Origin: Halorubrum sp. 48-1-W
GTDB lineage: Archaea; Halobacteriota; Halobacteria; Halobacteriales; Haloferacaceae
Length of the DNA: 46,718 nucleotides
Reading direction: 5' to 3'
Assembly: GCF_003287355.1 (NCBI RefSeq)
Contig: NZ_QMIM01000037.1
Coordinates: 1 to 46,718 of the forward strand
Shown: piece after piece, positions 9,366-37,880 of the stretch
Layout: each line of letters begins with the position of its first letter
Position numbering within the stretch: the first letter of the stretch is position 1
Position numbers and translations under genes: made by a program
Notes under the pieces: model-generated
The model's input: the letters and a program-made list of their open reading frames with translations, nothing else
Databases searched by the model: none
Told to the model about the DNA's origin: nothing

Positions 9366-10681
9366 GCGGCAGCCCGTATGCCCCCCACACCGACGCCGAG
9401 ACGGCGGCGATGCTGGAGACGATCGGCGTCGACGACGAGGCGGCCCTCTTCGACATCCCGGACGACGTCGCCTTCGACGGGGAGTTCGGGATCGACGCCC
9501 GGACCGAACGCGGGATCCGGGACGAGTGTGCGCGGATCTTCTCGCGCAACGACGACGCGACCGAGTTCCTCGGCCGCGGCCACTACGGTCACTACGTACC
9601 GAGCGTCGTCGACCACCTCTCGGACCGCGCGGAGTTCCTCACGAGCTACACGCAGTACCAGCCGGAGATCTCACAGGGGTTCCTCCAGGCGCTCTTCGAG
9701 TACCAGTCGATGCTCGTGGAGCTGACCGGACTCCCCGTGGCGAACTGTTCGATGTACGACGCCGCCACGGCCCTGGCCGAGGCCGCGACGCTCGCCGACC
9801 GCGTCCGTTCGACGACCGGCGACGTCGTCCTCGTCCCCGAACGGCTCCGCGAGGGGAAGCGGGCGGTCCTCGAGAACTACTGTGCCGGCGCGGACCTGAC
9901 GGTCGAGTCGTATCCGATGGACGACGGGATCGCCGACGTCGACGCGCTCGCCGACCGCGTCGGCGACGACGTCGTCATGGTGTACGCGGAGAACCCGACC
10001 GTCCGCGGGTGTATCGAGGAGAACCTCGGCGCGATCGGCGACGTCGCGGCCGAGGACGACGCGCTGTTCACGCTCGGGTCGGACGTGGTCGCGCTGTCGG
10101 TGCTCGAGGAGCCCGCGGACGTCGGGGCCGACGTCGTCGTCGGCGAGGCCGGCGTGCTCGGGCTCCCGACCGCCTACGGGATGGGGCTGGGTATCTTCGC
10201 CTGTCGCGAGGAGCACCTCCGACAGGTCCCGGGGCGGCTCGTCGGCGCGAGCGAGGACGCTGTGGGCGACCGGGCGTTCACGCTCACGCTCCAGACCCGC
10301 GAACAGCACATCCGGAAGGAGCGGGCGACCTCCAACATCTGTACGAACCAGGCGTGGGTCGCGCTCCGTACGGCGATCCACGCCGCGTGGCTCGGCCCGG
10401 ACGGGCTCGTCGACCTCGCGAACGACTGCGTGCGCGAGTCAGCCGCGCTCGCCGACCGGATCGGCGACCTTTCCGGTGCGGCCGCGCCCGTCCACGACCG
10501 CCACCACTTCCGGGAGTTCACGGTGCGGACGGATCAACCCGCGGCCGCCGTGGCCGGTGACCTCGCCGACGAGGGGTTCCTCGTCCACGTCGTCGGCGAA
10601 CACCTGCTTCAGGTGTGCGTGACCGACCGCAACGCCGGACGCGTGGACGACCTCGTCACAGCGTTCGAGGAGGTGATCTGA
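9362..10681 (+). CDS. gcvPA: Glycine dehydrogenase (decarboxylating) subunit 1
   Basis: A 439-residue subunit of the two-part P protein that decarboxylates glycine. The N-terminal [20 protein letters not shown], then [18 protein letters not shown] and [21 protein letters not shown] near residue 95 are hallmark sequences of the GcvP N-terminal half; [21 protein letters not shown] near residue 310 is also diagnostic. This subunit lacks the PLP lysine, which is on subunit 2. Its ATG overlaps the small ORF at 9240, and a weak GAGGT lies 5 nt upstream. It ends one base before the GTG of gcvPB. Confidence 0.96.
10669..10678 (+). promoter_or_regulatory. Strong Shine-Dalgarno for gcvPB
   Basis: GGAGGTGATC, fully complementary to the archaeal 16S rRNA 3' tail, lies inside the last codons of gcvPA, 9 nt (from GGAGG) before the GTG at 10683. 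It fixes the start of gcvPB at this GTG and shows internal, leadered initiation in the operon. Confidence 0.8.
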
Positions 10682-18490: not shown

Positions 18491-21400
18491 TTACTCCGTG
18501 TTCTCCTCCGTTTCGACGATCTCGATGGCTCTGACCTCGGGGTTCTCCGCTGCGCCCTGCTCGAAGGCGACCGTGACCGTCCCGTCGCCGTCGTCGGTGA
18601 CGGTGAAGCTCTTCATCGTCCCCGTTTCGTGGCCGACGTCGTCCACGGGGTCGTACTGCGTCAGGACCTGATCGTCCTCGATCGAGACGTTGAACTGGCG
18701 GTCGCCCGGCTCGCTAGCCTCGGAGTACGAGTTACCGACGTAGAGTCGGACCTCGACCTGCTGACCGGAGTCGACGTCGAACTCCCACGTGGAGTTGCCG
18801 TAGCGCTCGCAGTCCCACACGCCGTCGGGCGTGCTCGACGGGACGTTCGCGGTCGTCGAGGTGATCTCTCCGCCGCAGTAGTTGTTATCGGCGGCGTCGG
18901 CCGACACGAGGTACTCCGAGTCCGCGTCCTCGACGCCGGTCCAGTCTGGGCCGTTGTCCGTCGCGTTGAGCGTCTCGCTCTCGCCAGCGTTCACGCGGTG
19001 GAGCGTCTGGGGTTCGGACTCCTCGACGGTCACCTCGAAGCTCTCGGTGGTCTGGTCGGTGCCGTCGTCGGCCGTCACGTTCACCGTGTACGTGCCCGCG
19101 TCGCCGGACTCGGGAGCGACCGTCAGATCGCTATCGTCGAGTGTCACGAAGTCGGGACCGCTCACCGACAGCGACACCGTGTCGCCGTCGGGATCTGAGG
19201 CGTTGACCGGAACGGTCGTCGAGTCGCCCTCGGTGACGGTCTGGTCGTCGATGGCCTCGATGGTCGGCGCAGTGTTGTCGTCGCCGCCGTCGTCGGAGCT
19301 GTCAGCTTCCGAGACGGTGAACGCGCTGAGCTTGCCGAAGTCCTCGGACGCGTCCAGTTCGATGTCCAGTTCGCCGTCGGTGACCTCGACGGTGAACGTC
19401 TTCTCGGTCGCGTTCAACGCACCGACGTCCGCGTAGATGTCGTAGTCGGAGAGGACCTGCTCACCCTCCACGGACGCGTTGAACACGCGGTCGCCTTCTC
19501 CACCATCGGCGTTTCCGCCATCGACACCGTGGTAGATCTCCGCGAACTGTAGCGTTACCTCGTAAGTGCCGTCTTCGACGGGCACACTGTACGAGAGTGG
19601 GTCACCGTACCGCTCCGTCTGGTACAGCGGGTCGTCCTGCGTGTTCCCGATGTCCTGGCTGATGTCGGTTGTCCCCTCGGATCCGCCGAATTCGCCGGCG
19701 AATTCCGTGTCATTGACGTAGTTGGTACCGTCCGCAGCGGTGTACTCGGAGCCGCCCGCGTTCACCGCGTAGACGGGCTCGTCGCCAGTCGACGACGACT
19801 CGACCGTGAGCTGGAAGCTCTCTGTCGTCGTGGTCGTCCCGTCGTCGGCCGTCACGTTCACCGTGTACGTGCCCGCGTCGCCGTCTTGTGGGGCGACATC
19901 GAGCGTTCCCGTGCCGTCGCCGTTGTCGGTCAGACCGACGAAGTCCGGGCCGTCGGCCGACAGCGACGCCGTGTCACCGTCTGAATCCGAGGCATTGACC
20001 TGAACCGTCGTCGAGTCGCCCTCGGTGACGGTCAGGTCGTCGATGGTGTCGACCGTCGGCGCAGTGTTGTCGTCGCCGCCGTCGTCGATCGGCTCGACCT
20101 CGATGGCCGACACCTTCGCGTTGTCTTCGACGGTAGTGAACTCGACGTTCAATTCACCGTCAGTGACTTCGGCGGTGAACGTCTCCTGGATCGCTGCGTG
20201 CGGGCCGCCGGCCTCAGCGTAGATATCGTAGCTGTCCAGGACTTGTTGGCCCTCGATCGAGACGTCGAACAGGCGGTCGCCTTCGCCACCGTCGTTCGCC
20301 ACGCCCTGGTAGATCTCGGCGAAGTGTAGGGTCACCTCGTAGTCGCCGTCTTCGAGAGGGGTGTCGTAGCTGAAGTTGCCGTACCGCTCGGTGTAGTACA
20401 GCTCGTCGTCGTCCGTGTTCGAGATCTCGGGATCCGAGGGCGTCCCGGCCTCTCCGGTGGTGAACGTCGTGCCGCCGTCGAAGTCGGCGTCCGCCTGGAA
20501 CTCCGTGCCGTCCACAGCGGTGTACTCGGAGCCGCCGGCGTTCACGGCGAAGCTGGTCGCACCGTCGGCGGGTTCGTCGTCGCCGGCGTCCTCTTCGTAC
20601 TTCAGGACGACCACGTTCGAGTCGAGACCGGTGTCGGAACCGGGCTCGCCGTGGGTCGCCACGAGGTAGTTGTAGCCGCCGACCTCGGTCGTGTTGAGCA
20701 GCGTGACGGGCACCTCGGCCTCGCCGTTCGAGTCGAGCGTGACCGTCTGGTAGTCGACGTTCTCGACCTTGTTGGCCTCGTAGGCCTCGATGTCGTAGCC
20801 GGGCGTGCCGTCGTACTCGGGGACGTTGTCGAGTTCGAGTTCGCCCTCGGCGTGTAGTAGCGTGACCGTCTCGTCGGGCTCGCCCGTGACGGTCACGGTC
20901 TGTTCGGTCCCGTTCACGGTGGCCGCGCTGTGGTGGTCGCGGAGCGCGCTGTCGTCGAGGTCGACGTCTTGTACACCGATACTCGGTGCCGACGCGACCG
21001 ACTCCCCGAGGGTCGCCTGTGCGCCGCCGGCGCTTCCGTCACCGAACAGCTGTGTCTCCTGGACGCTCCCGTCGTCGTACTCGGCGCTCACCGTCGAGCG
21101 AGCCAGCTCCAGTCCGGAGACCGGACCGGCCTCCTGAGAGGAGATGGTCGCGTTCTTGATGCTCGTCGGGTCGTTGTCCGCCGAGAACGACATCGACTCG
21201 CCAGGTTCGAAGTCGGTGAATTCGACGGTCAACACGTCATAGCCGTCGGATCCGTTCACGCCGTTGTGTGGCTGGCTGAACACGTCGTCGTCCGCGGTGC
21301 TGACGACGCCGACACCGTCACCGGACTCCGAGTCGATGACGAGTCCCTTCGCCGCCTGATCGCCGGCGGTACCGTCCGGATCCCACACCATATCCGGCAT

Positions 21401-24400
21401 CGCGCCCGAGGACAGGTCGAAGGTGATCGACGATATCTCCTGGTCGCCGGTGTTCTCGACCGTGAACGAGCCGCTACTGTAGGTGGATGCCTCGGTGCCG
21501 CTATCGGGCGTGACGCTCACCGACGCGGATCCGGGATCCGCCGTGGATTCGTTGACCGAGACGGTTTCGGTCGCGCTATCGTTCACACCGTCGTCGTCGG
21601 TGACGGTGAGTTCAACGTCGTAGTCGCCCGCAGCGTCGAAGGTGTTGGTTACCTGCTCACCGGTGGCGTCGGTCTCGCCGTCGCCATCGAAGTCCCACTC
21701 GTAGGACTCGATCGTACCGTCGTCACTGGAGCCGGATGCGTCGAAGCTCACCTGCTGGCCCGCTTCGGGTGAGTCGGGGCTGTAAGTGAACGACGCCGTC
21801 GGCTCTTCGTTGCCGTCGCCGACGGTCGCGTCCGTCTGCCAGAGGTTGATTAGCTGCTGAACCTGCTGGAAGTCGATGGTCTGGCCGCCGGTGCCGGGGA
21901 TCTCCGCGTCGGTCTGCCACCAGTTAATGGCCTGTTGGATCTCCGTGAACTCGATCTGCGAGTCGTTTCCGCTCTCGTCGTAGCTCGCGACCGCCTCCGC
22001 GACGGTCATCTCCTCGTCGGGGTCGCCGTCCTCCTCGATCGCGACGACCTCGATGGCGTTGATCATCGGGTTCTGGACGTCGCCGTGTTCGAAGTCGACG
22101 TCGAGGGTGCCGTCGTCGTCGACGGTCGCGGTGAAGCTCTTCATCGTCCCGTTGGCGTGGCCGACGTCAGCCACCGGGTCGTAGTTCGTCAGCACCTGCT
22201 CGTCCTCGATCGAGGCGTTGAACTCCCGCAGGCCGGACTCGCTGGTTTCGTCGAACTGGTTGCCGAAGTAGAGGCGGACCTCGACTTCGGTCCCGGACTC
22301 GACCGGGAACTCCCAGTCCATCGGGACGCCGTCGTCGGGTTGGTCGAACCGCTCGGCGTCGAACACGGCGTCGGGCGTGCTGTCGGGGACGTCGTCGGTC
22401 GGCGTGACGTCGTCGCCGTCGTCGTAGGTGCCGCTTCCGTTCGGGTCGACGAGGTACGAAGAGGGCTCCGACGCCGTGTCGGTACTCCAGTCCGGTCCGT
22501 CGTCGAGCGCGTCGAGCGACGACCCCCCGGCGTTGACGCGGTGAAGCACCTCGCCAGCCGCGACGTCCGTGTCCTGTACCGTGACGTTCACCGTGTCGGC
22601 GTCGCTGTCTTCGCCATCGGAGACGTTTACTTCGAAGGTGAGCGTCTCGTCGGCGTCGACCTCGGGCGCGGTGAACGTCGTCGTCTCACCGTCGCTCTGG
22701 CTCAGCCCGGCGTCCGGACCCGCCGTCTGGGTCCACGTGTAGCCGAGCTGGTCGCCGTCCGGGTCATCGGACCCCGACGCGTCGAGCGTGACCGAGTCGC
22801 CCTCGTCGACCGTCTGGTCGTCACCCGCGTCCGCCGTCGGCGGCTGGTTATCGGGCGGCGTGACGTAGTCGACCGAGATGTCGGTCCACGTCGCCGAGAA
22901 CGGGCTCGCGCCGTTCGACGTCGAGATGACGCCCACTGCGGGTGCGACGCCGTCGGAAGTGTCGAGCCAGCTCGCCGGCATCGCGACGCTTCCGACCTCG
23001 GTAGTCGTGCCGTCGACTTCGTACTCGGCGGTGACGTTGACCTCGTCGACACCGTTGTCCGGTGCGGGGTCAGTGGTCGGATCGACCGTCATCCGAAGCG
23101 TCGTGGTTCCGCCCGCGACCGCGGTTTCGTCGGTCATCTGGCCGTCGAACGAGTCGTCGACCTCCTTCGCGAACTCGACGCCGCCGTCGCCGCCGTTGGC
23201 CGCGGCGACCAGTTTGACGTAGTTGGACTGCGTACCGTCCCCGATCTGGAGCCCGGCGGACTGGAAGTCCTCCGGGTTCTCCGGGAAGGAGGCGACCGTC
23301 GTCTCGACGGTGAACGGCTCGTCCGGCGTGTTGACGCCGAACTGGAAGCCGTACTGCTGGTCGTTCGGAGTCTGGTAGGCGTCGCCCTGCGGCACCTCCT
23401 CAACCGTGAGGACCTCCGCCGCGCCGCCGACCGTCATCTTCGTCGGATCGTAGAGGTCCTGGTAGTCGTCCTGTCCGTTCGTCATCACGCCCGTCCAGCC
23501 CTGGCCGTTCTCGCCGAACAGGCTCAGTTCGGAGAGGTCGTACTCGACCGGAGCGGTCGTGTTGACGCCGTTATCCGGATCGACCGCGAACGGGTCCTCG
23601 GTGTCGTTGAGGCCGTCGTTGTCGTCGTCGGGGTCGTTCAGGTTCGACTCGCCGTCGTCGTCGAAGTCGGGGGGCGTCGAACTCGACGAACACGGGTCCG
23701 TGCCCGCGTCGATCTCGTCGGCGTTGTCGTAGCCGTCGCCGTCCTCGTCGAGGCTCGGATCGTCGGCACCGGTACACTGGTCGCCGTTATCGGTTCCGTC
23801 GTAGTCGTCCGGCTCGAAGACGGTGACGTCGTTGCCGCCGTGGTTGGCGGTCCAGACGGTGCCGGCGAACGTCTCGTCGTCGTCCTGGGTGGCGATGCCG
23901 AGCGGACCGCCGGTGTTGAAGATGGTCTCGCTATTCGTGGCCGTCTGGCCGTCGGCACTCAGTTCGACGCGCTCGATGTCACCGCCGAGTTCCACCTGGA
24001 GGATGTCGCCCTCCATCGCGCCGCCGAAGTTCGAGGCGGTGTACTCGGTCGTTCCGCCCGTCGGGGCGAAAAGGACCTTGTCCCCGTCCTCGTACTCCAT
24101 CGTGTTCGCACTACCTGCGGGCGCACCCGGGTCGGGCGATCCGCTCGTGGGCGGAATGTAGTCGGCTTCGACCGGGTTCACCATGCTCTGTGGAACCGGG
24201 GAGTTCGACTCGTTGACGTCGAACTTCACGTTCCCGTCCGCGTCGTAGATGTCCGCCTGGGTGGGGTTCGCACGGATCGGCGCCGCGTGCCCGCCGTACT
24301 CGCCCTCGTCAGCAGCGATGAGCTGGTCGTTCGTCGAGAAGCTCCCGTCCTCGTTCGGGTGGTTCGTCACTGACTCCGCGTCGGCCACGATATCCCCGTT

Positions 24401-26272
24401 CGCGTCCGCCGGCTGGCCGCCCCAGCCGCCGTTCGGACCGTGGTCGCTGACGTAGAGCTGGCCGCTCTCCGCGAGGACCAAGTCGTAGGGGTTCCGGTAG
24501 CCGGGCGAGTAGATCTGTACCGGGCCGTCCTCGATCAGCTTCGCCTGGTTGATCCCGTCGTTCCCGCCGAACGGCAGGTCGTCGCCGTCGGTGTCGTCGT
24601 CGTTCTGGATCGTCGGGATGCCGTAGTAGAAGTCCAGGCTCGGGTAGTCGCCGTCGTAGTCCTGGAGGTCCTTCGCCTGATGGTCGTTCTCGATCTGCGC
24701 GAGATCGATCTCGAGGACCGCCGCCGACAGCGCGTACTCGGGCGTATGCCCGAAGTTGTCGCCCGGTGCGCCCTTGTTGGTGTGGCCGCCCTGTGCGACG
24801 TACATCGTGTCGCCGTCGGCCGAGAGGTCGAGCCCGTTCGTCGCGTGGTTCTCCTCCGAGCGCGGGAGGCCGAGTACCAGCACGTCGTGGTCGACGTCGC
24901 TCGCCTGTAGCGTCTCGTCGCTTCCCGAGTCGACCGTCAGCCGCGAGATGGCCCCGGAGTTGGTGTCCGTGTCGTCGTCGTCCTGGCCGACGTCGATCTC
25001 GGGGTCGCTGGAACCGACGTAGACCACGGGCTGGTCGGCGGTACCGCCGACGGTCAGTCCGGTGATCTGGCGGTTGTCCTCGCTGGAGTCGAGGTTCCCG
25101 AAGTCGTCGTGGTTCGGGATGTCCTGGATCGCGTCGATCGCGACCTCGTTGACGACCTCGTAGCTGTTCTCGCCCGTTCGCTCGACGTCGAGTGCGTACA
25201 CCATTCCACCCTGCGTGGAGACGTACGTGCGCCCGTCAGGTCCGAAATCGATCGCCGTCGGGTTACCGGCGCTAAAGCCCTGGAGCTTGCTCTTCGAGAA
25301 GCCGGGTTCGACCGAACTCGTCCCCTCACCCGATAGATCGACCGTGACCGGGCTGTTGGACCCGGAGTGGCTCACTTCGAGCGTCGCGCTCTTCGCCGCC
25401 ACGTCGGACGGCGAGAACGTCACCGGGACGTCGGCGGACTCTCCCGGTTCGAGCGTCGTCTGAGACGCCGATCCCGCGGAGAACTCGCCGGCGTCGTCGC
25501 CGGTGACTGAGACGTCTGAGATGTCGATGCTCGAGTCGCCGTCGTCGCCGAGGTTCGTCACGGTGGCCGTCTCGGTCTCACTTTCGCCGGAGAGAACCGA
25601 GCCGAAGTCGATCTCGCCCGGCCCGCCGAGCTCGTTCGGCTGTGGCTCCGTCGAGACGATCTCGATCGCGTTGATCTGCGGGTTCTCCGTCACGTGATCG
25701 AAGTCGACGTCGATCGTCCCGTCGCTCGTGACGGTGAACGACTCCATCCCGCCGGTGTCGTCGCCGTACTCCTCGATCGGGTCGAAGTCCTCTACCGTCT
25801 GGTCCTCGACGCTGACATCGAAGACGCGGTCGCCGGGGTCGCTGGTGCCGTCGTACCCGTCGTAGAAGTACAGCCGAACCTCGACCGCCTGTCCGTCGGG
25901 GACGTCGAACTCGTACTGCATCTCGTCACCCTCTGCTGGATCCCAGCGTTCGTCGTCCCAGATCCCGTCGGGTGTGCTGTCGGGGACCGAAGAGTCAATA
26001 TCGGACGGCTGGCCGTGACTCGCCGTGTCGTTACCGCCTGCGACCAGATACTGCTCGTCGTCTCCCCAGTCCGGTCCGCCATCAACTGCGGAGACCTCTC
26101 CTCCGACGGCGTTCACGCGATACTCCACGTCCCCCGTCTGCTGTGCCTGTGCCGTCCCGACGCCGAGCCCCGCTCCGGACGCGGCCATCGAGGTCACCAT
26201 CAGTACGGAAAACAGTACCGCCAGCGTTCGTGAACGGGTAATCACGACCCTCCGATGATTTGCACTCACCAT
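18491..26272 (-). CDS. Giant secreted protein: five malectins, sugar-dehydrogenase-like propeller, PKD, dockerin-like
   Basis: A 2593-residue exported protein. The signal peptide ends TAQAQ near residue 44. In order: malectin (49-208); ASH/SPD2-like sandwich (212-318); glucose/sorbosone-dehydrogenase-like beta-propeller (321-828, with YSPGYRNPYDLVLAESGQLY); thrombospondin-type calcium repeats (835-905, DEDGDGYDNADEIDAGTDP); DUF1349-like concanavalin fold (905-1140); PKD/REJ (1141-1235); malectin (1240-1416); dockerin-like helix pair (1417-1490); PKD (1490-1580); beta-sandwich domains (1585-1900); malectins at 1905-2062, 2165-2323 and 2422-2590, separated by cadherin-like domains. Malectins bind oligosaccharides, so it probably binds glycans or extracellular polysaccharide. 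No C-terminal membrane anchor is visible. Domain edges are estimates. Confidence 0.88.
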   Translation of the reverse strand: MVSANHRRVVITRSRTLAVLFSVLMVTSMAASGAGLGVGTAQAQQTGDVEYRVNAVGGEVSAVDGGPDWGDDEQYLVAGGNDTASHGQPSDIDSSVPDSTPDGIWDDERWDPAEGDEMQYEFDVPDGQAVEVRLYFYDGYDGTSDPGDRVFDVSVEDQTVEDFDPIEEYGDDTGGMESFTVTSDGTIDVDFDHVTENPQINAIEIVSTEPQPNELGGPGEIDFGSVLSGESETETATVTNLGDDGDSSIDISDVSVTGDDAGEFSAGSASQTTLEPGESADVPVTFSPSDVAAKSATLEVSHSGSNSPVTVDLSGEGTSSVEPGFSKSKLQGFSAGNPTAIDFGPDGRTYVSTQGGMVYALDVERTGENSYEVVNEVAIDAIQDIPNHDDFGNLDSSEDNRQITGLTVGGTADQPVVYVGSSDPEIDVGQDDDDTDTNSGAISRLTVDSGSDETLQASDVDHDVLVLGLPRSEENHATNGLDLSADGDTMYVAQGGHTNKGAPGDNFGHTPEYALSAAVLEIDLAQIENDHQAKDLQDYDGDYPSLDFYYGIPTIQNDDDTDGDDLPFGGNDGINQAKLIEDGPVQIYSPGYRNPYDLVLAESGQLYVSDHGPNGGWGGQPADANGDIVADAESVTNHPNEDGSFSTNDQLIAADEGEYGGHAAPIRANPTQADIYDADGNVKFDVNESNSPVPQSMVNPVEADYIPPTSGSPDPGAPAGSANTMEYEDGDKVLFAPTGGTTEYTASNFGGAMEGDILQVELGGDIERVELSADGQTATNSETIFNTGGPLGIATQDDDETFAGTVWTANHGGNDVTVFEPDDYDGTDNGDQCTGADDPSLDEDGDGYDNADEIDAGTDPCSSSSTPPDFDDDGESNLNDPDDDNDGLNDTEDPFAVDPDNGVNTTAPVEYDLSELSLFGENGQGWTGVMTNGQDDYQDLYDPTKMTVGGAAEVLTVEEVPQGDAYQTPNDQQYGFQFGVNTPDEPFTVETTVASFPENPEDFQSAGLQIGDGTQSNYVKLVAAANGGDGGVEFAKEVDDSFDGQMTDETAVAGGTTTLRMTVDPTTDPAPDNGVDEVNVTAEYEVDGTTTEVGSVAMPASWLDTSDGVAPAVGVISTSNGASPFSATWTDISVDYVTPPDNQPPTADAGDDQTVDEGDSVTLDASGSDDPDGDQLGYTWTQTAGPDAGLSQSDGETTTFTAPEVDADETLTFEVNVSDGEDSDADTVNVTVQDTDVAAGEVLHRVNAGGSSLDALDDGPDWSTDTASEPSSYLVDPNGSGTYDDGDDVTPTDDVPDSTPDAVFDAERFDQPDDGVPMDWEFPVESGTEVEVRLYFGNQFDETSESGLREFNASIEDEQVLTNYDPVADVGHANGTMKSFTATVDDDGTLDVDFEHGDVQNPMINAIEVVAIEEDGDPDEEMTVAEAVASYDESGNDSQIEFTEIQQAINWWQTDAEIPGTGGQTIDFQQVQQLINLWQTDATVGDGNEEPTASFTYSPDSPEAGQQVSFDASGSSDDGTIESYEWDFDGDGETDATGEQVTNTFDAAGDYDVELTVTDDDGVNDSATETVSVNESTADPGSASVSVTPDSGTEASTYSSGSFTVENTGDQEISSITFDLSSGAMPDMVWDPDGTAGDQAAKGLVIDSESGDGVGVVSTADDDVFSQPHNGVNGSDGYDVLTVEFTDFEPGESMSFSADNDPTSIKNATISSQEAGPVSGLELARSTVSAEYDDGSVQETQLFGDGSAGGAQATLGESVASAPSIGVQDVDLDDSALRDHHSAATVNGTEQTVTVTGEPDETVTLLHAEGELELDNVPEYDGTPGYDIEAYEANKVENVDYQTVTLDSNGEAEVPVTLLNTTEVGGYNYLVATHGEPGSDTGLDSNVVVLKYEEDAGDDEPADGATSFAVNAGGSEYTAVDGTEFQADADFDGGTTFTTGEAGTPSDPEISNTDDDELYYTERYGNFSYDTPLEDGDYEVTLHFAEIYQGVANDGGEGDRLFDVSIEGQQVLDSYDIYAEAGGPHAAIQETFTAEVTDGELNVEFTTVEDNAKVSAIEVEPIDDGGDDNTAPTVDTIDDLTVTEGDSTTVQVNASDSDGDTASLSADGPDFVGLTDNGDGTGTLDVAPQDGDAGTYTVNVTADDGTTTTTESFQLTVESSSTGDEPVYAVNAGGSEYTAADGTNYVNDTEFAGEFGGSEGTTDISQDIGNTQDDPLYQTERYGDPLSYSVPVEDGTYEVTLQFAEIYHGVDGGNADGGEGDRVFNASVEGEQVLSDYDIYADVGALNATEKTFTVEVTDGELDIELDASEDFGKLSAFTVSEADSSDDGGDDNTAPTIEAIDDQTVTEGDSTTVPVNASDPDGDTVSLSVSGPDFVTLDDSDLTVAPESGDAGTYTVNVTADDGTDQTTESFEVTVEESEPQTLHRVNAGESETLNATDNGPDWTGVEDADSEYLVSADAADNNYCGGEITSTTANVPSSTPDGVWDCERYGNSTWEFDVDSGQQVEVRLYVGNSYSEASEPGDRQFNVSIEDDQVLTQYDPVDDVGHETGTMKSFTVTDDGDGTVTVAFEQGAAENPEVRAIEIVETEENTE

Positions 26273-29475: not shown

Positions 29476-29803
29476 CGTCCGTTCCCTCCGTGAGTCCGGC
29501 CACTGCCGGCCGATACGACGGTATCCGTCGCCGTACAGATCGTATTCCGTGTCGTTCGGTTCGGCTTCGCTCTGGCGTCCATCCGTCCCGCCGCCGCGTG
29601 TGTCGTGTGTCGCACGACCTCGCTTTCGCGGGAGGTGTGAAAAAATCTCGGCGTCGGATCCGCTGGTACGGTTGCCAGCAGTTCAGCCCGGATCGTTCCC
29701 CCGATCACCTCGAGTATACACAACAACCGTGTACTGCGAATACGGTAAAAGAACAACACTTATGTACGATCTATTCAACAAACGGACTGTGCTACCACGC
29801 ATC
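29476..29803. other. 328-bp divergent spacer, HDAC-like gene / BCCT transporter
   Basis: No gene is recognisable. The right third (29700-29770) turns AT-rich and holds a palindromic operator (29716-29734), an AATACGGTAAAAGAAC element that may be the TATA region, and an in-frame ATG at 29762 that could extend the small ORF at 29804. The left part is GC-rich with a short inverted repeat GGCC-ACTGCC-GGCC at about 29499-29512. Confidence 0.5.
29716..29734. promoter_or_regulatory. Operator copy 1 (TACAC-N7-GTGTA) at the BCCT promoter
   Basis: ATACACAACAACCGTGTAC contains the perfect arms TACAC (29717-29721) and GTGTA (29729-29733). It lies about 70 nt before the small ORF and overlaps or precedes the likely TATA region. 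The same arms and spacing recur at 31764-31780 and 34470-34486. Confidence 0.7.
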
Positions 29804-29890
29804 ATGGAAGTCGACCATCGCGGAGAATCGGACGGCGACCGTCGCGTGCGCTCGGATCCGGGATCCACCGACGGAGGTGATCCCACGTGA
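29804..29890 (+). CDS. 28-codon leader ORF coupled to the BCCT gene
   Basis: ATG 29804 opens a 28-codon frame ending at TGA 29888-29890, overlapping the BCCT start GTG (29887) by 4 nt. The peptide is charged, MEVDHRGESDGDRR and so on, with no known family. The Shine-Dalgarno of the transporter lies inside it. An ATG at 29762 in the same frame would make it 42 codons. A translational-coupling role is inference. Confidence 0.35.
   Translation: MEVDHRGESDGDRRVRSDPGSTDGGDPT
29873..29883 (+). promoter_or_regulatory. Very strong Shine-Dalgarno for the BCCT gene
   Basis: GGAGGTGATCC matches the complement of the archaeal 16S rRNA tail over 11 bases and puts GGAGG 9 nt before GTG 29887. It settles the GTG as the transporter's start. 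Confidence 0.8.
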
Positions 29891-31584
29891 GCGACGCCGA
29901 AGGGGGCGAAAGCGCGGTGGCGACGTTCCGGGAGGAGATCGACCCGGTCGTCTTCGCGTTCGGGGCACTGTTGACCCTCGGGGTGATCGTCGCGTTCTTC
30001 CTCAGCCCGTCGACCGTCGAGAACACGATCTCGTCGCTCAACACCCAGCTTCTCGGTGCGTTCAACTGGGCCATGCTGTTGATCGTCTTCCTGATCGTCC
30101 TGTTTCTCCTCTTCCTGATCGTGGGACCGTGGGGTGGGATCAAGCTCGGCGACGAGTCCCCGGAGTACAGCTTCCTGTCGTTCTTCGCGATGCTGTACTC
30201 GGCCGGGTTCGCGGCCGGCGTCGTGTTCTGGGGGCCGACCGAGGCACTGTTCTACTACGACAGCCCTTCGCCGCTGTTTAGTACCGTCGAGGGCGGATCG
30301 GCGGAGGCGATGACGGTCGCCGTCCAGCAGACGCTGTTCCACTGGGCGTTGCCACAGCTCGCGGTGTTCACCATCATGGGCATCGCTATCGGGTACTTCG
30401 CGTACAACTACGAGAACGTCCCGCTACGGGTCTCCTCGGCGCTCACGCCGATCCTCGGCGCGGACAACCTCGACGGCCCGCTCGCGAAAATCGTCGACGT
30501 CCTCGCGGTGTTCGCGACGATCGGGGGCGTCGCCACGTCGCTCGGGTTCATCGGGAGCCAGTTCGTCACCGGGCTCGACTACCAGTGGGGTATCGACATG
30601 GGCGACATCGGCATCCTGCTCGTCGTCACCATGATGACCCTGCTTTTCACCACGTCGATGGTGCTGGGCGTCGACAAGGGGATCCGTCGGATCTCCAACT
30701 TCAACATGATCCTGTTCGTCGCGCTCATGATCGTGACGTTCGTCGTGGGCCCGACGCTGTTCCTCGTGCTGCTCGGCACGCAGGCGCTCGGCGGGATGAT
30801 CACCGACTTCGTCTCGATGAGCCTCTTCACGGGTGCTGGACCGATGGGAGCGGGCGACGCGAGTTCGACCGGCTGGGTGAACGCGTGGACGGTGTTCTAC
30901 TGGGCGTGGGCGCTTTCGTGGTCGCCGTTCGCGGGCCTGTTCATCGCCCGGATCTCCAAGGGTCGAACCGTCCGCGAGGTCGCATTCACGGGGATCGTCG
31001 CGACCTCCGCGGCCACCATTCCGTGGTTCACGTTCGTCGGCGGCACTGCCGTGTGGGCACAGCACAACGGCGTCGCCGACTTCGGTGCCGTGATGGCCGG
31101 TGACGCCGGCGCGGAGGTGTCCGGGTTCATCCTCTTCGAGGCGCTGAACTTCACGCTGAACCTCGGCGGTCTATCGCTGACGCTCCCGGTCGGATCGGTG
31201 CTGATCTACGCGTTCTTGATCCTGGTGACGACCTTCTTCGTCACCTCCGCCGACTCCTCGACGCTGGCCGTCTCGATGATGACCACGGGCGGGAAGGCCA
31301 AGCCGTCGAACATCAACCGTATCTTCTGGGGGGTCGTTCTCGGGCTGACCGCGGCGATCCTGATGATCCTCGGCGGCACCGGCAGCGCGAACACGCTCCA
31401 GCAGGCGGCGATCATCACCGGCACGCCGTTCGCCTTCGTCTGCTTCCTCGCGATGCTGGCGCTGATCAAGGACTTCGGCGAGAACTACGACCAGGTGCTC
31501 TTTCAGAACGAGACCGTGCTGTACGGGTCGGCGGACGACTCGGGGTCACGAACCGATTCCGCCGTCGGATCCGACGACGACTGA
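29887..31584 (+). CDS. BCCT-family betaine/carnitine/choline/ectoine transporter
   Basis: A 565-residue sodium- or proton-coupled symporter with about 12 membrane helices. The family signature is clear in YWAWALSWSPFAGLFIARIS near residue 337 (aromatic betaine-binding box), together with LYSAGFAAGVVFWGPTEAL near residue 103 and FFVTSADSSTLAVSMM near residue 450. Start GTG is fixed by the Shine-Dalgarno. The C-terminal tail is short and acidic, unlike the long osmosensing tail of BetP. It heads a cluster whose enzymes fit ectoine or related compatible-solute catabolism, so it may import the substrate as a nutrient. Its promoter bears an operator shared with two other units. Glycine betaine is the main alternative substrate. 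Confidence 0.92.
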   Translation: MSDAEGGESAVATFREEIDPVVFAFGALLTLGVIVAFFLSPSTVENTISSLNTQLLGAFNWAMLLIVFLIVLFLLFLIVGPWGGIKLGDESPEYSFLSFFAMLYSAGFAAGVVFWGPTEALFYYDSPSPLFSTVEGGSAEAMTVAVQQTLFHWALPQLAVFTIMGIAIGYFAYNYENVPLRVSSALTPILGADNLDGPLAKIVDVLAVFATIGGVATSLGFIGSQFVTGLDYQWGIDMGDIGILLVVTMMTLLFTTSMVLGVDKGIRRISNFNMILFVALMIVTFVVGPTLFLVLLGTQALGGMITDFVSMSLFTGAGPMGAGDASSTGWVNAWTVFYWAWALSWSPFAGLFIARISKGRTVREVAFTGIVATSAATIPWFTFVGGTAVWAQHNGVADFGAVMAGDAGAEVSGFILFEALNFTLNLGGLSLTLPVGSVLIYAFLILVTTFFVTSADSSTLAVSMMTTGGKAKPSNINRIFWGVVLGLTAAILMILGGTGSANTLQQAAIITGTPFAFVCFLAMLALIKDFGENYDQVLFQNETVLYGSADDSGSRTDSAVGSDDD

Positions 31585-31662
31585 ATCGACCGACGCCCGA
31601 ATCGACTGACGCCCGAATCGACTGACGCCCGAATCGACTGACGCCCGAATCGACTGACCGTG
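31583..31662. repeat. 16-bp tandem repeat, 4.7 copies, after the BCCT gene
   Basis: Units of GAATCGACTGACGCCC run from 31583 (within the stop codon) to 31662, the first with one change and the last partial. As 16 is not a multiple of three, it is not coding. It lies between the transporter and the next promoter. Confidence 0.92.
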
Positions 31663-31762
31663 ACCTGCTCGACCGGACCTGGTTCCGGTGTGCTCTCCGC
31701 TCGTCCGCGCGTGTCCCCGTTCCCGGCCGAACACGTGTCGGGAGAAGGATTTAATGGACGTT

Positions 31763-31781
31763 GTACACACTTACTGTGTAT
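31763..31781. promoter_or_regulatory. Operator copy 2 overlapping the aminotransferase start
   Basis: GTACACACTTACTGTGTAT has arms TACAC (31764-31768) and GTGTA (31776-31780). A TATA-like GGATTTAATGG lies at 31747-31757, so the palindrome covers the transcription start and the first bases of the ATG at 31780. This is the classic position for a repressor. Confidence 0.75.
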
Positions 31782-33141
31782 GGACAGGGACACTGCGAAG
31801 CCGGACGCCGGCGGCCTGCCGGGGCCGAACGCCGAAAAGTGGGTGGAACACTACGGCGAACACGCCGCGCCCAGCGAGTACTCCCACGAGTTCGTCTGGG
31901 ACGTCACCCGGGAGGCCGACGGTCCGTTCGTCACGGACGTCGACGGCAACGTCCTCATGGACTTCACGTGTCACATCGGGGCCGCGCCGCTCGGCTACAA
32001 CAACGAGAAGGTGCTCGACACGCTCGGGGAGTTCGACCTCGTCGAGCCGATGAAGATCGCGGGCCAGGACCTGTACTTCGGCTCGGGACCAGACCCCGAC
32101 TCCGCGCCGTTCCCGGGTTCGACACAGCTGATGGAGGCGCTCACGGAGGTCTCCTCGGCGTTCGGACTGGACACGGTCTTCCTCTCGAACTCCGGGGCCG
32201 AAGCGATCGAGAACGCGATGAAGGTCGCCCACGACCACAAGCCGGCCGCGAAGTACGGCTTCGCGTTCGGCGGGTCCTTCCACGGGCGCACCCTCGGGAC
32301 GCTTTCGCTCACCAACACCAAGGACGTGTACACCCGCCACTACCCGGAGGTCGCCGGGATCGAGACGGTGCCGTTCTGTGCGGACCGCGGGTGTACCCCC
32401 GAGACGTGCGACTGTGGCTTCTTCGCCGGTAGCGGCTCACAGCTACGAAACGCGCTCGCGCCGGAGGGCGGCCACGTCGACCCCGCGGAGATCGCGTTCG
32501 TGATCCTCGAGCCGATACAGGGCGTCGGCGGCTACCGGTTCCCGAGCGAGCCGTTCATGGCGGAGGTCGGCGCCGTCACCGACGAGTACGACATCCCGCT
32601 GATCGTCGACGAGATCCAGTCGGGTATCGGCCGGACCGGCGAGTTCTGGGCGTCGGAACACTACGACGTCGAGCCCGACGTGATCGGGGCGGCGAAGGCG
32701 CTCCGCGTCGGCGCGACGGTCGGCCGTTCCGACCTCTTCCCCGACGAGAAGAACCGACTCGGCTCCACTTTCGGCGGCGGCGACCTGCTCGGCTCGATGA
32801 TGGGCGCGCTCACGATCGAGGCGATCCGGGAGTACGACCTGCTCGCGAACGCGACCGAGCGCGGTCGGCAGGCGAAGGAACTGCTCGCCGACGACGCGGG
32901 CGACCACGTCGTCGACGTGCGCGGGAAGGGGTTAATGCTCGCCGTCGAGTTCGACACGCCCGACCGCCGCGACGACGTGGTGGCGGAGGCGTTGGCACGC
33001 GGCCTGCTCACGCTCGGGTGCGGCAAGAAGACGGTCCGCCTGTTGCCGCCGCTCGACTCGAGCGAACGCGAGATCGACCTCGGGATCTCGATCTTCCTCG
33101 ACGCCGTCGCGGCCGCGGGGCCGACCCCGACGACCGCGTGA
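31780..33141 (+). CDS. Class III aminotransferase (diaminobutyrate/GABA type)
   Basis: A 453-residue PLP enzyme of the ornithine/GABA/diaminobutyrate aminotransferase class. The substrate/cofactor region includes LSNSGAEAIENAMKVA, GGSFHGRTLGTLSLT, LIVDEIQSGIGRTGEF and AAKALRVGATVG, with the Schiff-base lysine at residue 306. A cysteine-rich insert, CADRGCTPETCDCGF, follows the active-site region near residue 198. The ATG at 31780 is set by a TATA-like box 27 nt upstream, so the mRNA is leaderless. In an ectoine pathway it would be the DoeD-like step turning diaminobutyrate into aspartate semialdehyde; the family alone cannot prove that substrate. Confidence 0.88.
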   Translation: MDRDTAKPDAGGLPGPNAEKWVEHYGEHAAPSEYSHEFVWDVTREADGPFVTDVDGNVLMDFTCHIGAAPLGYNNEKVLDTLGEFDLVEPMKIAGQDLYFGSGPDPDSAPFPGSTQLMEALTEVSSAFGLDTVFLSNSGAEAIENAMKVAHDHKPAAKYGFAFGGSFHGRTLGTLSLTNTKDVYTRHYPEVAGIETVPFCADRGCTPETCDCGFFAGSGSQLRNALAPEGGHVDPAEIAFVILEPIQGVGGYRFPSEPFMAEVGAVTDEYDIPLIVDEIQSGIGRTGEFWASEHYDVEPDVIGAAKALRVGATVGRSDLFPDEKNRLGSTFGGGDLLGSMMGALTIEAIREYDLLANATERGRQAKELLADDAGDHVVDVRGKGLMLAVEFDTPDRRDDVVAEALARGLLTLGCGKKTVRLLPPLDSSEREIDLGISIFLDAVAAAGPTPTTA

Positions 33142-33147
33142 GGCGAG

Positions 33148-34437
33148 CTACGCCGTCGGGACGTCGCGCTCGGCGATGTCGAGGATCGACTCCGTCAACA
33201 CTTCGACGCCGATCGGTAGGCTGGCCTCGTCGACGTCGAACGTCGGGGAGTGGTGGCCGGTGGGGTGGTCGGTGCCGACGACCATGTACGTCGCGAGCCC
33301 GCCGTCCGCCTGGACGCGCTCCATCAGGTACGTCGCGTCCTCGCTCGCGCCGAAGTCCGCGATCGGGAGCACCTCGGTCACGCCCTCGATCCCCTCGGCG
33401 ATCGACGCGACGCGGTCGGCGAGTTCGGGGTCGCTGTCCGCCCGTGGGCACTCGGTCGTGACCTCGAAGTCGAGCTCGCATCCGTGCGACTCGGCGGCCC
33501 CGCGGAAGGCCCGCTTCAGCCGGGACTTCCCGTACTCCTTCAGGGCCGTCGTCTCGCCGCGCGCCTCCGCCTCGACGCGCGCGCGGTCCGCGATCACGTT
33601 GCTCGCGCTCCCCGCCTCCGCGTACCCCACGTTCACGCGGGTCATCCCCTCGCTGTGTCTGGGGATCCCGTACGCGTTCGAGATGGCGGTCCCGAGCGCC
33701 TGCATCGCGTTGTCGCCCTCCTCCGGGGACTTGCCGGCGTGCGCCGAGGTCCCGCGGAAGGTGGCCTCGACGTGGGCGATCGCGAGCGCCCGCTCGATCC
33801 CGGCGACGACCCGGCCGGTCGGGTGGCCGAGGCCGACGTGGACCGCGAACAGGTAGTCGATCCCCTCGATGAACCGGCTCCTCGCCATCGGGTGGCCGCC
33901 GCCGCCCAGCTCCTCGGCGGGCTGGAAGAAGGCGACGAACCGCCCCTCGAAGTCGCTCGCTTTCACCGCCTCGAGCGTCGCGAGCCCCCACGTCATGTGC
34001 GCGTCGTGGCCGCAGGCGTGCATCACCCCGTCCGTGTCCGACCGGAACCCCTCGCGGGCGGGCGCGTGGTCGTCGTCCGCGGACTCCTCGATGAACAGGC
34101 CGTCGATGTCGACCCGGAGGCCGACGGTCGGCCCCTCGCCGCGCTCGAGGACGGCCACACAGCCGGTGACGCCGCCCTCGGTCGCCTCGAGGACGTCCTC
34201 GCGGGCGCCGCGCTCCCTGGCACGTGCGACCCACTCGTCGTAGGCGTCGTCCTCGAGGGTGCCCATCCGGTCGTCGGGGTCGTACGCCTCGCGGCCGACC
34301 GCGAGCTCGTCGACGCCGATCCGCTCTATCTCGTCGACCAGTCGGCTCGTCGTGTAGAACTCGCGCCAGCCGGGCTCGGGGTGTTCGTGGAGTCCTCGGC
34401 GCATCTCGACGAGCCGCTCCGCGACGGGTCCTGTCAT
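33148..34437 (-). CDS. M20-family amidohydrolase (AbgA/DoeB2-like)
   Basis: A 429-residue zinc-dependent amidase/deacetylase of the M20D group. Metal ligands appear in HACGHDAHMTWG near residue 139, PAEELGGGGHPM near residue 172 and HHSPTFDVDE near the end. The N-terminal LHEHPEPGWREFYTTSRLVDEI is like aminobenzoyl-glutamate hydrolase AbgA, and a dimerisation lid domain (SAHAGKSPEEGDNAMQALG) is present. It hydrolyses an N-acyl amino acid; next to an ectoine-hydrolase-like gene it is a good candidate to deacetylate N-acetyl-diaminobutyrate. It ends 6 bp from the aminotransferase stop and starts beside operator copy 3, with a TATA-like TTCTTAAGTG about 27 nt upstream. Confidence 0.87.
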   Translation of the reverse strand: MTGPVAERLVEMRRGLHEHPEPGWREFYTTSRLVDEIERIGVDELAVGREAYDPDDRMGTLEDDAYDEWVARARERGAREDVLEATEGGVTGCVAVLERGEGPTVGLRVDIDGLFIEESADDDHAPAREGFRSDTDGVMHACGHDAHMTWGLATLEAVKASDFEGRFVAFFQPAEELGGGGHPMARSRFIEGIDYLFAVHVGLGHPTGRVVAGIERALAIAHVEATFRGTSAHAGKSPEEGDNAMQALGTAISNAYGIPRHSEGMTRVNVGYAEAGSASNVIADRARVEAEARGETTALKEYGKSRLKRAFRGAAESHGCELDFEVTTECPRADSDPELADRVASIAEGIEGVTEVLPIADFGASEDATYLMERVQADGGLATYMVVGTDHPTGHHSPTFDVDEASLPIGVEVLTESILDIAERDVPTA

Positions 34438-34468
34438 GTGAGTCCGTGACGCCCGGACGCACTTAAGA

Positions 34469-34487
34469 ATACACGATGATCGTGTAT
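34469..34487. promoter_or_regulatory. Operator copy 3, perfect palindrome between divergent genes
   Basis: ATACACGATGATCGTGTAT is a perfect 9-bp inverted repeat around one central base. The palindromic CTTAAG at 34462-34467 beside it can serve as TATA core in both directions: leftward it gives a leaderless start at 34437, rightward it puts the operator between TATA and start point, as at copy 2. Both are followed by TGGA. Confidence 0.8.
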
Positions 34488-34561
34488 GGAGACTACAAAA
34501 AAGGTAAGTACCGGTCCGGCGAATCCCCGGACGTCACCGCCACCGGGCGGCGGATACACCA

Positions 34562-35545
34562 ATGAGCGACCAGCCAGATATCGTCGTCCTCCGTGAGGGG
34601 ACCGAGGGACTGTCGATGGGATCGTACGCCGAGACGCTCCGCGAGCGCCTTCCGGACCACGAGGTCGCGCTGGCGAGGACGCCCACAGCGGAGCGCGAGC
34701 TCGTCCCGCGGGCGCGAGTCGTCACCGGGATCACGGTCGAGGAGGCACTGATAGCCGACGCGGACCGACTGGAACTCTTCGCCTGTACCTTCGCCGGGAC
34801 CGACCACGTGCCCGTGGACGCGCTCACGGACCGTGGCGTGGCCGTCACCAACGCCGGCGGGATCCACGCGCCGGGGATCGCGGAGCAGTCGATCGCGAAC
34901 ATGCTCGTGTTCGCCCGACGGCTCCACGAGGGATGGCGGCGCAAGTCGAACGCGGAGTGGCGGCACTTCCAGTCGTACGAGTTCACGGACAGCACCGTCA
35001 CCGTGATCGGGCTCGGCTCCATCGGCCAGCACGTCGTCCAACGGCTCGAGGGGTTCGACGTGGAGACGATCGGCGTCCGGTACACGCCCTCGAAGGGCGG
35101 CCCCACGGACGAGGTGATCGGCTTCGAGGAGGACGCGATCCACGACGCGCTCGCCCGGAGCGACTACGTCGTGATCGCGTGCCCGCTCAACGACCTCACG
35201 TGGGGGCTGATCGGCGAGGCGGAGCTCGCGACCCTGCCGCCGCACGCGGTGGTCGTCAACGCCGCCCGCGGCGGGATCGTTGATACCGACGCGCTCGTCT
35301 CCGCGCTCCGCTCCAGCGGACTCCGCGGGGCCGCCCTCGACGTCACCGACCCCGAACCGCTCCCCGCGGACCACCCGCTCTGGGACCTCGAGAACTGCCT
35401 CATCACGCCGCACACGGGCGGCCACACGCCGAAACACTGGGACCGACTCGCCGACATCGTCGCCGACAACGTTACCGCCCTCGACGCCGACGGCGACCCC
35501 ACCGACCTCCGGAACCTCGTCGCCGTCCCCCACGACGCCGAGTGA
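34562..35545 (+). CDS. D-2-hydroxyacid dehydrogenase
   Basis: A 327-residue NAD(P)-dependent enzyme of the D-isomer-specific 2-hydroxyacid dehydrogenase family, reducing 2-oxoacids. The dinucleotide motif is GLGSIGQHVVQRL near residue 146. The catalytic trio is visible as Arg in NAARGGIVD, Glu in DVTDPEPLP and His in ITPHTGGHTP. Start ATG 34562 yields the usual N-terminus; the leader from the shared promoter is about 75 nt and contains a 36-codon out-of-frame ORF from ATG 34486. It is divergent from the amidohydrolase and shares operator copy 3. Its substrate in the pathway is unknown. Confidence 0.9.
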   Translation: MSDQPDIVVLREGTEGLSMGSYAETLRERLPDHEVALARTPTAERELVPRARVVTGITVEEALIADADRLELFACTFAGTDHVPVDALTDRGVAVTNAGGIHAPGIAEQSIANMLVFARRLHEGWRRKSNAEWRHFQSYEFTDSTVTVIGLGSIGQHVVQRLEGFDVETIGVRYTPSKGGPTDEVIGFEEDAIHDALARSDYVVIACPLNDLTWGLIGEAELATLPPHAVVVNAARGGIVDTDALVSALRSSGLRGAALDVTDPEPLPADHPLWDLENCLITPHTGGHTPKHWDRLADIVADNVTALDADGDPTDLRNLVAVPHDAE

Positions 35546-36701: not shown

Positions 36702-37880
36702 ATGCCACACGATGTCTTTCCGCGGTCGGAGTACGAATCGCGGGTCGAACGCACCAGAGAGCGACTCCACGAGCGCGACCTCGACGCCATCGTGGTCGCG
36801 GATCCGGCGAACATGAACTACCTCGCGGGCTACGACGGCTGGTCCTTCTACGTCCACCAAGCCGTCGTCGTCGCCCGCGACTACCCGGAGCCGGTCTGGG
36901 TGGGTCGGGACATGGACCGCAACGGTGCCCGCGCGACGACGTGGCTCGCGGAGGAGAACATGCGTGCGTACAGCGACGACCACGTCCACTCGCCGTACGA
37001 CCTCCACCCGATGGACTTCCTCGCGGACGTGCTCGCGGACCTGGAGGTCGCGGGCGGTCGGATCGGCCTGGAGATGGACGCCGCCTACTTCACGGCGAAG
37101 TCGTACACCCGGCTCCAGTCACAGCTACCGAAGGCGGAGTTCGTCGACGCCGACCTGCTCGTCAACTGGCTCCGGATCCGAAAGTCCGACCGGGAGATCG
37201 AGTATATGAAGGAGGCCGCCAGGATCTCCGAGGAGGCGATGCTCGCGGGGCTCGACGCCATCGAGGCGGGCGTCCCCGAGTACGAGGCTGCCGCCGCGAT
37301 CTACGATCGGCTGATCCGCGGCACCGACGACTACGGCGGCGACTACCCCGCGATCGTCCCGCTCATGCCCTCCGGCGACCACACGGGGACGCCACATCTC
37401 ACCTGGACCGACCGCGAGTTCGAGGAGGGTGATCCCGTCCTCATCGAGCTGTCGGGGTGTCGCCACCGCTACCACTCGCCGCTCGCGCGGACGACGTTCG
37501 TCGGCGATCCGCCGACGGCCATCGAGGAGACGGCCGACGTCGTCGTCGAGGGGATCGAGGCCGCACTCGACGTCGTCGAACCGGGCGTCACCTGCGAGCG
37601 CGTCGAGCGGGAGTGGCGCGAGACGATAGCGCAGTACGGCGTCGAAAAGGAGGACCGAATCGGCTACTCGATGGGGCTCGGCTACCCGCCGGACTGGGGC
37701 GAACACACCGCCAGCATCCGGCCCGGCGACGAGACTGTCATGGAAGAGGGGATGACCTTCCACATGATCCCCGGATTGTGGGAAGACGAGTTCGGCGTCG
37801 AACTCAGCGAGACGTTCCGGGTCACCTCGACGGGCGCGGAGACGCTCGCGGACTTCCCGCGTCGCCTGTTCACGGCCTGA
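36702..37880 (+). CDS. doeA: Ectoine hydrolase-like M24 protein
   Basis: A 392-residue creatinase/aminopeptidase-fold protein. It resembles DoeA/EutD ectoine hydrolase rather than Xaa-Pro peptidases: the N-terminal blocks DPANMNYLAGYDGWSFYVHQ and MDRNGARATTWL, then HPMDFLADVL, GGDYPAIVPLMPSGDHTGTP, GCRHRYHSPLARTTF and LGYPPDWGEHTASIRPGDE are as I know them from ectoine hydrolases. That enzyme opens the ectoine ring to N-acetyl-L-2,4-diaminobutyrate. The length (about 400) fits. Neighbours supply a transporter, a deacetylase candidate and a transaminase. The alternative is a creatinase- or dipeptidase-type relative. A DoeC-type semialdehyde dehydrogenase is not in the window. Confidence 0.8.
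   Translation: MPHDVFPRSEYESRVERTRERLHERDLDAIVVADPANMNYLAGYDGWSFYVHQAVVVARDYPEPVWVGRDMDRNGARATTWLAEENMRAYSDDHVHSPYDLHPMDFLADVLADLEVAGGRIGLEMDAAYFTAKSYTRLQSQLPKAEFVDADLLVNWLRIRKSDREIEYMKEAARISEEAMLAGLDAIEAGVPEYEAAAAIYDRLIRGTDDYGGDYPAIVPLMPSGDHTGTPHLTWTDREFEEGDPVLIELSGCRHRYHSPLARTTFVGDPPTAIEETADVVVEGIEAALDVVEPGVTCERVEREWRETIAQYGVEKEDRIGYSMGLGYPPDWGEHTASIRPGDETVMEEGMTFHMIPGLWEDEFGVELSETFRVTSTGAETLADFPRRLFTA

Follow-up and report, generated by a model that had tools for sequence, protein, structure and literature searches.

A stretch of 46,718 nucleotides from Halorubrum sp. 48-1-W (contig NZ_QMIM01000037.1; the whole of it is called the window here) carries a cluster of genes that probably serve the uptake and breakdown of an ectoine-like compound, and three promoters of this cluster share one palindrome, TACAC-N7-GTGTA. 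We describe this palindromic operator, its conservation across haloarchaea and an unlinked gene, belonging to a family that we call F3, which most likely encodes the regulator. The genes of the cluster are as follows.

29887 to 31584, plus strand: BCCT-family transporter gene (Pfam BCCT, 1.4e-139)
31780 to 33141, plus strand: class III aminotransferase gene, AT1, with its ATG at 31780 (Pfam Aminotran_3, 1.6e-74)
33148 to 34437, minus strand: M20-family amidohydrolase gene (Pfam Peptidase_M20; TIGR01891 above cut-off)
34562 to 35545, plus strand: D-2-hydroxyacid dehydrogenase gene (Pfam 2-Hacid_dh_C, 7.7e-53)
36702 to 37880, plus strand: DoeA/EutD-type ectoine hydrolase gene, M24 (TIGR02993, 461 bits against a cut-off of 613)

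The M24 protein matches the solved DoeA structure 6twk over its full length (3.5e-113, its best PDB match), and NCBIfam DoeA is its best model, yet scores below its own cut-off. This close DoeA relative supports the ectoine-type pathway that a preliminary description, made from the sequence of this DNA, had proposed. The M20 amidohydrolase is not clearly DoeB: the DoeB2 model gives it 109 bits against a cut-off of 550, and its closest solved relative is an aminobenzoyl-glutamate utilisation protein. The gene set is that of the putative haloarchaeal ectoine clusters described in PMC13188858, in which EutD/DoeA is kept across genera together with genes for an aminopeptidase, an aminotransferase and a BCCT transporter; the passages of that paper covered here term the archaeal clusters provisional and name no archaeal regulator or operator.

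The palindrome lies at 29717-29733 (TACACAACAACCGTGTA), 31764-31780 (TACACACTTACTGTGTA) and 34470-34486 (TACACGATGATCGTGTA), where the preliminary description had placed it; the third site extends (34469-34487) to a 19-bp palindrome that is perfect save for its unpaired central base. Under a first-order Markov model with the window's dinucleotide make-up, 0.0006 exact motifs are expected per 5 kb and three in a given 5 kb have a P of ~3e-11, which agrees with the earlier judgement that three such matches are very unlikely by chance. The whole 3.58-Mb genome holds seven exact matches: these three, and four elsewhere, of which three fall inside what appear to be coding sequences and the fourth in unrelated intergenic DNA. 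Sites in relatives give a true arm length of 6 bp (TACACR...YGTGTA), a small correction to the 5-bp arms first described, and the refined form, TAHACRN5YGTDTA, matches the genome at these three sites and nowhere else (0.4-0.9 matches expected; reversed control 0). As this form was picked after the relatives' sites had been viewed, its count is descriptive, and it is conservation that provides independent evidence. With a position weight matrix (PWM) built from relatives, only these three sites in the window reach at least 9 bits. Scans of the whole genome were pattern-based rather than PWM-based: allowing one mismatch gave 43 further places, against 18 for the reversed control, and five of these near-matches, when checked by PWM, scored 17 bits or less each. 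The strict motif gives no wider regulon, although further uptake and catabolism genes had been expected to carry it genome-wide.

We collected 80 haloarchaeal loci using the aminotransferase as query, and examined 64 aminotransferase orthologues; four loci with poor or diverged operators (L052, L053, L073 and L074) stand outside that set. The arms are exact in 35 of the 64 orthologous promoters and carry at most two mismatches in 63, over the leaderless start codon and behind the TATA box. The conserved columns are the TATA box, at -31 to -24, and the arms, at -16 to -12 and -4 to +1, while the 7-bp spacer varies and the sequence beyond about -45 is random. Because the right arm overlaps the start codon, coding accounts for part of its conservation, but not for that of the left arm. 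The aminotransferase itself is 92-94% identical to orthologues of Halorubrum species, in a group that also includes Halobellus captivus. In a PWM scan of relatives the same motif was found at the promoters of the BCCT, amidohydrolase/dehydrogenase, DoeA and second-aminotransferase genes. As in a palindromic-operator regulon, one palindrome recurs at several promoters more often than chance would allow and is kept in relatives. The three sites and their conserved counterparts are a real local regulon with one operator; this was the central proposal of the preliminary description, and it is borne out by the uniqueness of the refined form in the genome and by the conservation.

The elements of the three promoters, whose start sites were predicted from sequence, are arranged as follows.

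29716 to 29734, no strand: operator 1, ATACACAACAACCGTGTAC (22 bits by PWM), upstream of the BCCT transporter promoter
29759 to 29766, plus strand: CTTATGTA, which probably serves as TATA box for the BCCT unit and follows operator 1 after ~25-30 bp
31750 to 31757, plus strand: TATA box of the aminotransferase (TTTAATGG), at -30 to -23, conserved in 62 distinct orthologous promoters
31763 to 31781, no strand: operator 2, GTACACACTTACTGTGTAT (29 bits by PWM), arms from -16 to +1
34462 to 34467, minus strand: cttaag, probably the TATA box for leftward transcription of the amidohydrolase gene, in a layout conserved in ~40 loci
34469 to 34487, no strand: operator 3, ATACACGATGATCGTGTAT (20 bits by PWM), between the divergent amidohydrolase and dehydrogenase genes, conserved in relatives
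34495 to 34504, plus strand: conserved A-rich box acaaaaaagg, seen as acaaaaaggataag in relatives, a candidate dehydrogenase promoter element

Operator 1 is kept at the same position in the Halorubrum relatives (L008-L012) and occurs in a varied form in many other genera; it stands upstream of a TATA-like box, unlike a repressor layout, and the aligned relatives read TTTATG where the probable TATA box stands. Operator 2 lies just behind its TATA box and overlaps the predicted leaderless start codon of the aminotransferase. At the third site, 27-28 bp separate the cttaag box from the ATG of the leftward amidohydrolase gene (34437); this spacing, together with the layout seen in ~40 loci, places operator 3 upstream of the amidohydrolase TATA box. 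The TTAA box there most likely serves the leftward amidohydrolase, with the A-rich box on the far side of the operator as the candidate promoter element of the rightward dehydrogenase. Thus the rightward repressor layout that had been read at the last two sites fits site 2 but not site 3. The TGGA noted after both palindromes is no common element: at site 2 it is the coding start (ATGGAC), and relatives do not keep it at site 3.

Around the BCCT gene there are other repeats. A conserved inverted repeat, GCCAT-N8-ATGGC (TATGCCATnnnnnnGCATGGC), is present in the BCCT gene leaders of L018, L024, L041, L049 and other loci and might form an RNA hairpin or be a site for a second regulator. In the window, a tandem repeat with a 16-bp unit (GACGCCCGAATCGACT) occupies 31576-31658, directly after the BCCT gene.

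No regulator gene had been seen in the window by the preliminary description, and none was found in the part that we examined. Clustering of neighbouring genes across the fetched loci gave one recurrent unknown family, F3 (~217 amino acids). By tblastn, 57 of the 80 loci contain an F3 gene; most relatives have it close to the transporter gene, but here it is unlinked. The sole F3-family gene of our genome lies outside this contig, at C8:33018-33623 on the minus strand, where a second aminotransferase gene and a second M20 gene precede it. Its product matches the A1 profile at 5.8e-118 and has an N-terminal domain of the form RGILxxxDRxxLxG...RIRxR...LDFxLL. The row of second aminotransferase, second M20 gene and F3 (C8:33-37 kb) is a module that in relatives is contiguous with the BCCT-aminotransferase module, indicating that the cluster has been split in this lineage. 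Neither Pfam nor NCBIfam matches F3 at E<=0.01, there is no significant PHROG match, the F3 profile finds nothing better than 0.03 among PDB sequences, and the open-access literature yielded no description of the family. Weak Pfam matches of single family members (WH_MCM3_C, HFX_2341_N; E>=0.02) were taken as chance.

In relatives whose F3 gene seems to form a transcription unit by itself, an operator of ~19-33 bits lies at or next to the start of F3. The occurrence of F3 also follows that of the operator. Among 116 genomes of the order, full-length F3 was found in 35 and a strict aminotransferase operator in 18, and all 18 of the latter have F3 (Fisher 8e-12). In the window's genus, in which F3 is unlinked, F3 is present in all four operator-bearing genomes, and none of the five that lack the operator has it in full length. 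We set as a prediction that operator-bearing loci without a linked F3 should have it elsewhere in the genome, and this was so in 7 of 7 (L008-L012, L051 and L071); L073 and L074, with diverged operators, also have F3 elsewhere. Full-length F3 is absent from L052 and L053, which have aminotransferase orthologues with no good operator (L053 being an incomplete metagenome-assembled genome), and from L075, L076 and L080, whose aminotransferases belong to a different subgroup. One further genome (G071) yielded no aminotransferase operator, and its single palindrome match is at F3's own start. These patterns suggest that the regulator is most likely this unlinked, unannotated gene, F3.

Distant paralogues of F3 (E about 1e-36 to 1e-9) have other neighbours: a PCNA-like gene in some loci, a proteasome gene in others, and in a third setting a class-I tRNA-synthetase gene (valyl-type in our reading) on one side and an MMPL exporter gene on the other. 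Many of them have on their own ATG a palindrome with the same 5-7-5 geometry and other arms: TAATC-N7-GATTA in two clades, and the TAGTC/TAGCC type in a third. Upstream of paralogues, perfect palindromes with 5-bp arms are most frequent with spacers of 7 and 9, and those with 6-bp arms with a spacer of 7. The pattern TAnnC-N7-GnnTA stands at the own ATG of 45 of the 122 F3-family members. In the fetched DNA as a whole, TAnnC-N7-GnnTATG is found at 59 of 9,933 ATGs, nearly all of them family, aminotransferase or transporter sites, or the opposite-strand reading of these. Within single genomes, the only exact TAATC-N7-GATTA is at the paralogue's own start in G047, G087 and G101, while G055 and G113 each have one at another place, and none exists in G024 or G103. 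That each paralogous clade has its own, differently spelled palindrome fits an autoregulating DNA-binding protein and not a mere target gene.

The arm spelling follows the protein clade: on a tree, 7 changes among 33 members account for the arm class of the right half-site. Alignment columns in which the proteins of the arm classes differ are concentrated at residues 28-35 of the N-terminal domain, which read H..KQK.N with TACAC, Q..RNA with TAATC and Q..YDA.Y with TAGTC. A model of this domain (pLDDT 84.5) consists of a short helix followed by a long one, and residues 28-35 lie at the start of the long, basic helix; no fold from the PDB or from viruses matches the model at E<=0.001, and a search for viral relatives of three of the paralogues found none. 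The way in which arm spelling goes with clade and residues suggests that F3 represents a new haloarchaeal family of autoregulating transcription factors, with DNA binding as the property that we infer. We consider it slightly better than an even bet that F3 founds a transcription-factor family in which a short helix and a long basic helix, not a winged helix, form the DNA-binding part, members mark their own leaderless start codons with TAnnC-N7-GnnTA, and the two middle arm letters have diverged along with residues 28-35.

Two of the paralogue neighbourhoods have features of their own. In L138, L140, L141 and L150 the paralogue is divergent from the PCNA-like gene (Pfam PCNA_N 1e-11 in L140; the L150 neighbour has no Pfam match), and two operators of TAATC/TAACC type flank the paralogue's TATA box, so that control of a sliding-clamp gene is possible. 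The clade between tRNA-synthetase and MMPL exporter genes is represented by L136, L137 and L149, and in G047 and G101 the TAATC-N7-GATTA at its own ATG is the single one in the genome. Outside these subjects, the window also holds a very large minus-strand open reading frame (18491-26272, 2593 amino acids) with a signal-like N terminus and repeated domains.

We propose that the three sites are operators of one local regulator of the uptake and breakdown of an ectoine-type solute, most likely F3, and put the probability of this at roughly 0.8. One regulator would then control both uptake (BCCT) and breakdown (aminotransferase, amidohydrolase and dehydrogenase), with F3 binding each palindrome as a dimer, through the residues at the start of its long basic helix. 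At start sites of leaderless transcripts that lie under the operator (those of the aminotransferase, and of F3 itself in relatives), binding should repress; at the transporter and the amidohydrolase, where the operator lies upstream of the TATA box, activation may be possible. In Haloferax volcanii, OxsR sites upstream of BRE/TATA are associated with activation and those downstream with repression (PMC9426492), and this rule, applied here, predicts mixed control. The inducer may be ectoine or one of its breakdown intermediates.

Several observations weigh against this proposal. F3 has no recognised DNA-binding domain, the confident N-terminal model is no winged helix, and an AlphaFold model of the full-length protein (37 close sequences) reached a pLDDT of only 51 and was not used. 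The operator is found at F3's own promoter in many relatives, but in our genome F3 lies in an operon with no clear operator, a degenerate site being in the right place at the operon promoter. Likewise the PWM scan found no operator at the DoeA gene promoter in the window, where relatives have one, and ~60% of F3-family members lack the strict start-site pattern, many being in operons and some very distant. Finally, the co-occurrence of F3 and operator is confounded by linkage and shared pathway; and the association between residues and arms is confounded by phylogeny, and is a lead, not proof.

Among known systems, the following come closest. Bacterial ectoine catabolism is regulated by EnuR (MocR/GntR) and AsnC/DoeX, and in these systems, as proposed here, the genes for taking up and degrading ectoine, a DoeA/EutD hydrolase gene among them, are under local control (PMC5924519, PMC13188858). 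They differ in that the recurrent linked gene here is F3, which has no helix-turn-helix or aminotransferase domain: in Pfam and NCBIfam it shows neither the GntR winged helix-turn-helix nor the aminotransferase-like domain of the EnuR type, and neither an Lrp-type helix-turn-helix nor a RAM domain. Neither EnuR nor AsnC recurs beside the haloarchaeal clusters, and no recurrent Lrp-like family was recognised among the neighbours; these searches covered gene neighbourhoods, and the rest of the genome was not searched for either. OxsR and TrmB resemble the present system in having palindromic or semi-palindromic sites whose position relative to BRE/TATA correlates with activation or repression, as PMC9426492 showed for OxsR, but they are of the winged-helix TrmB family, which F3 does not match, and the OxsR motif is CG-rich, unlike the operator here.

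Alternatively, a classical regulator encoded elsewhere, for which the IclR family is the best candidate, might bind the operator, with F3 only a co-regulated pathway protein. Haloarchaeal IclR proteins are catabolic regulators near some of these clusters: genes of one subfamily neighbour the cluster in Haloferax, Halobacterium, Halarchaeum, Halobium, Haloprofundus and Halogeometricum; between a divergent IclR gene and the aminotransferase of L073 lies a perfect GTAGACAGTTACTGTCTAC (9943-9959), one letter per arm from the operator here; and our own genome encodes three IclR proteins. However, IclR genes are linked in a minority of loci, are not conserved with the operator, and in the scan had no operator at their own promoters save in L073 and L074; the best match in our genome has only 37% identity and lies amid other catabolic genes. 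F3 itself has no HTH_IclR or IclR effector domain in Pfam or NCBIfam. IclR would also leave unexplained the differently spelled palindromes of the same geometry on the start codons of F3 paralogues. We therefore reject IclR as the general regulator, for its minority linkage, mostly unmarked promoters and want of a close homologue here, and regard a classical regulator encoded elsewhere as unlikely.

More improbable still is that F3 acts as a co-repressor or sensor with a second DNA-binding protein and makes no contact with the operator itself. This would suit a protein with no recognised DNA-binding domain or fold match that was present with the operator in all tested cases, but the arm spelling tracks the F3-family clade and a residue cluster at the start of the basic helix, as direct contact predicts. 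That the three sites are a chance cluster or structural repeat with no regulatory role, to which the four further exact matches, mostly inside genes, might point, we consider next to impossible given their clustering in 5 kb, the uniqueness of the refined form to this locus and the site's retention in 63 of 64 orthologous promoters.

If F3 is the regulator, as we propose, it would be a concrete candidate for the control of ectoine-type catabolism in Archaea, where the clusters are so far termed provisional (PMC13188858), and a family named in none of the searched libraries would gain a proposed function. As operator and protein spelling vary together across the paralogues, the DNA-recognition code of this haloarchaeal family may be directly readable and testable.

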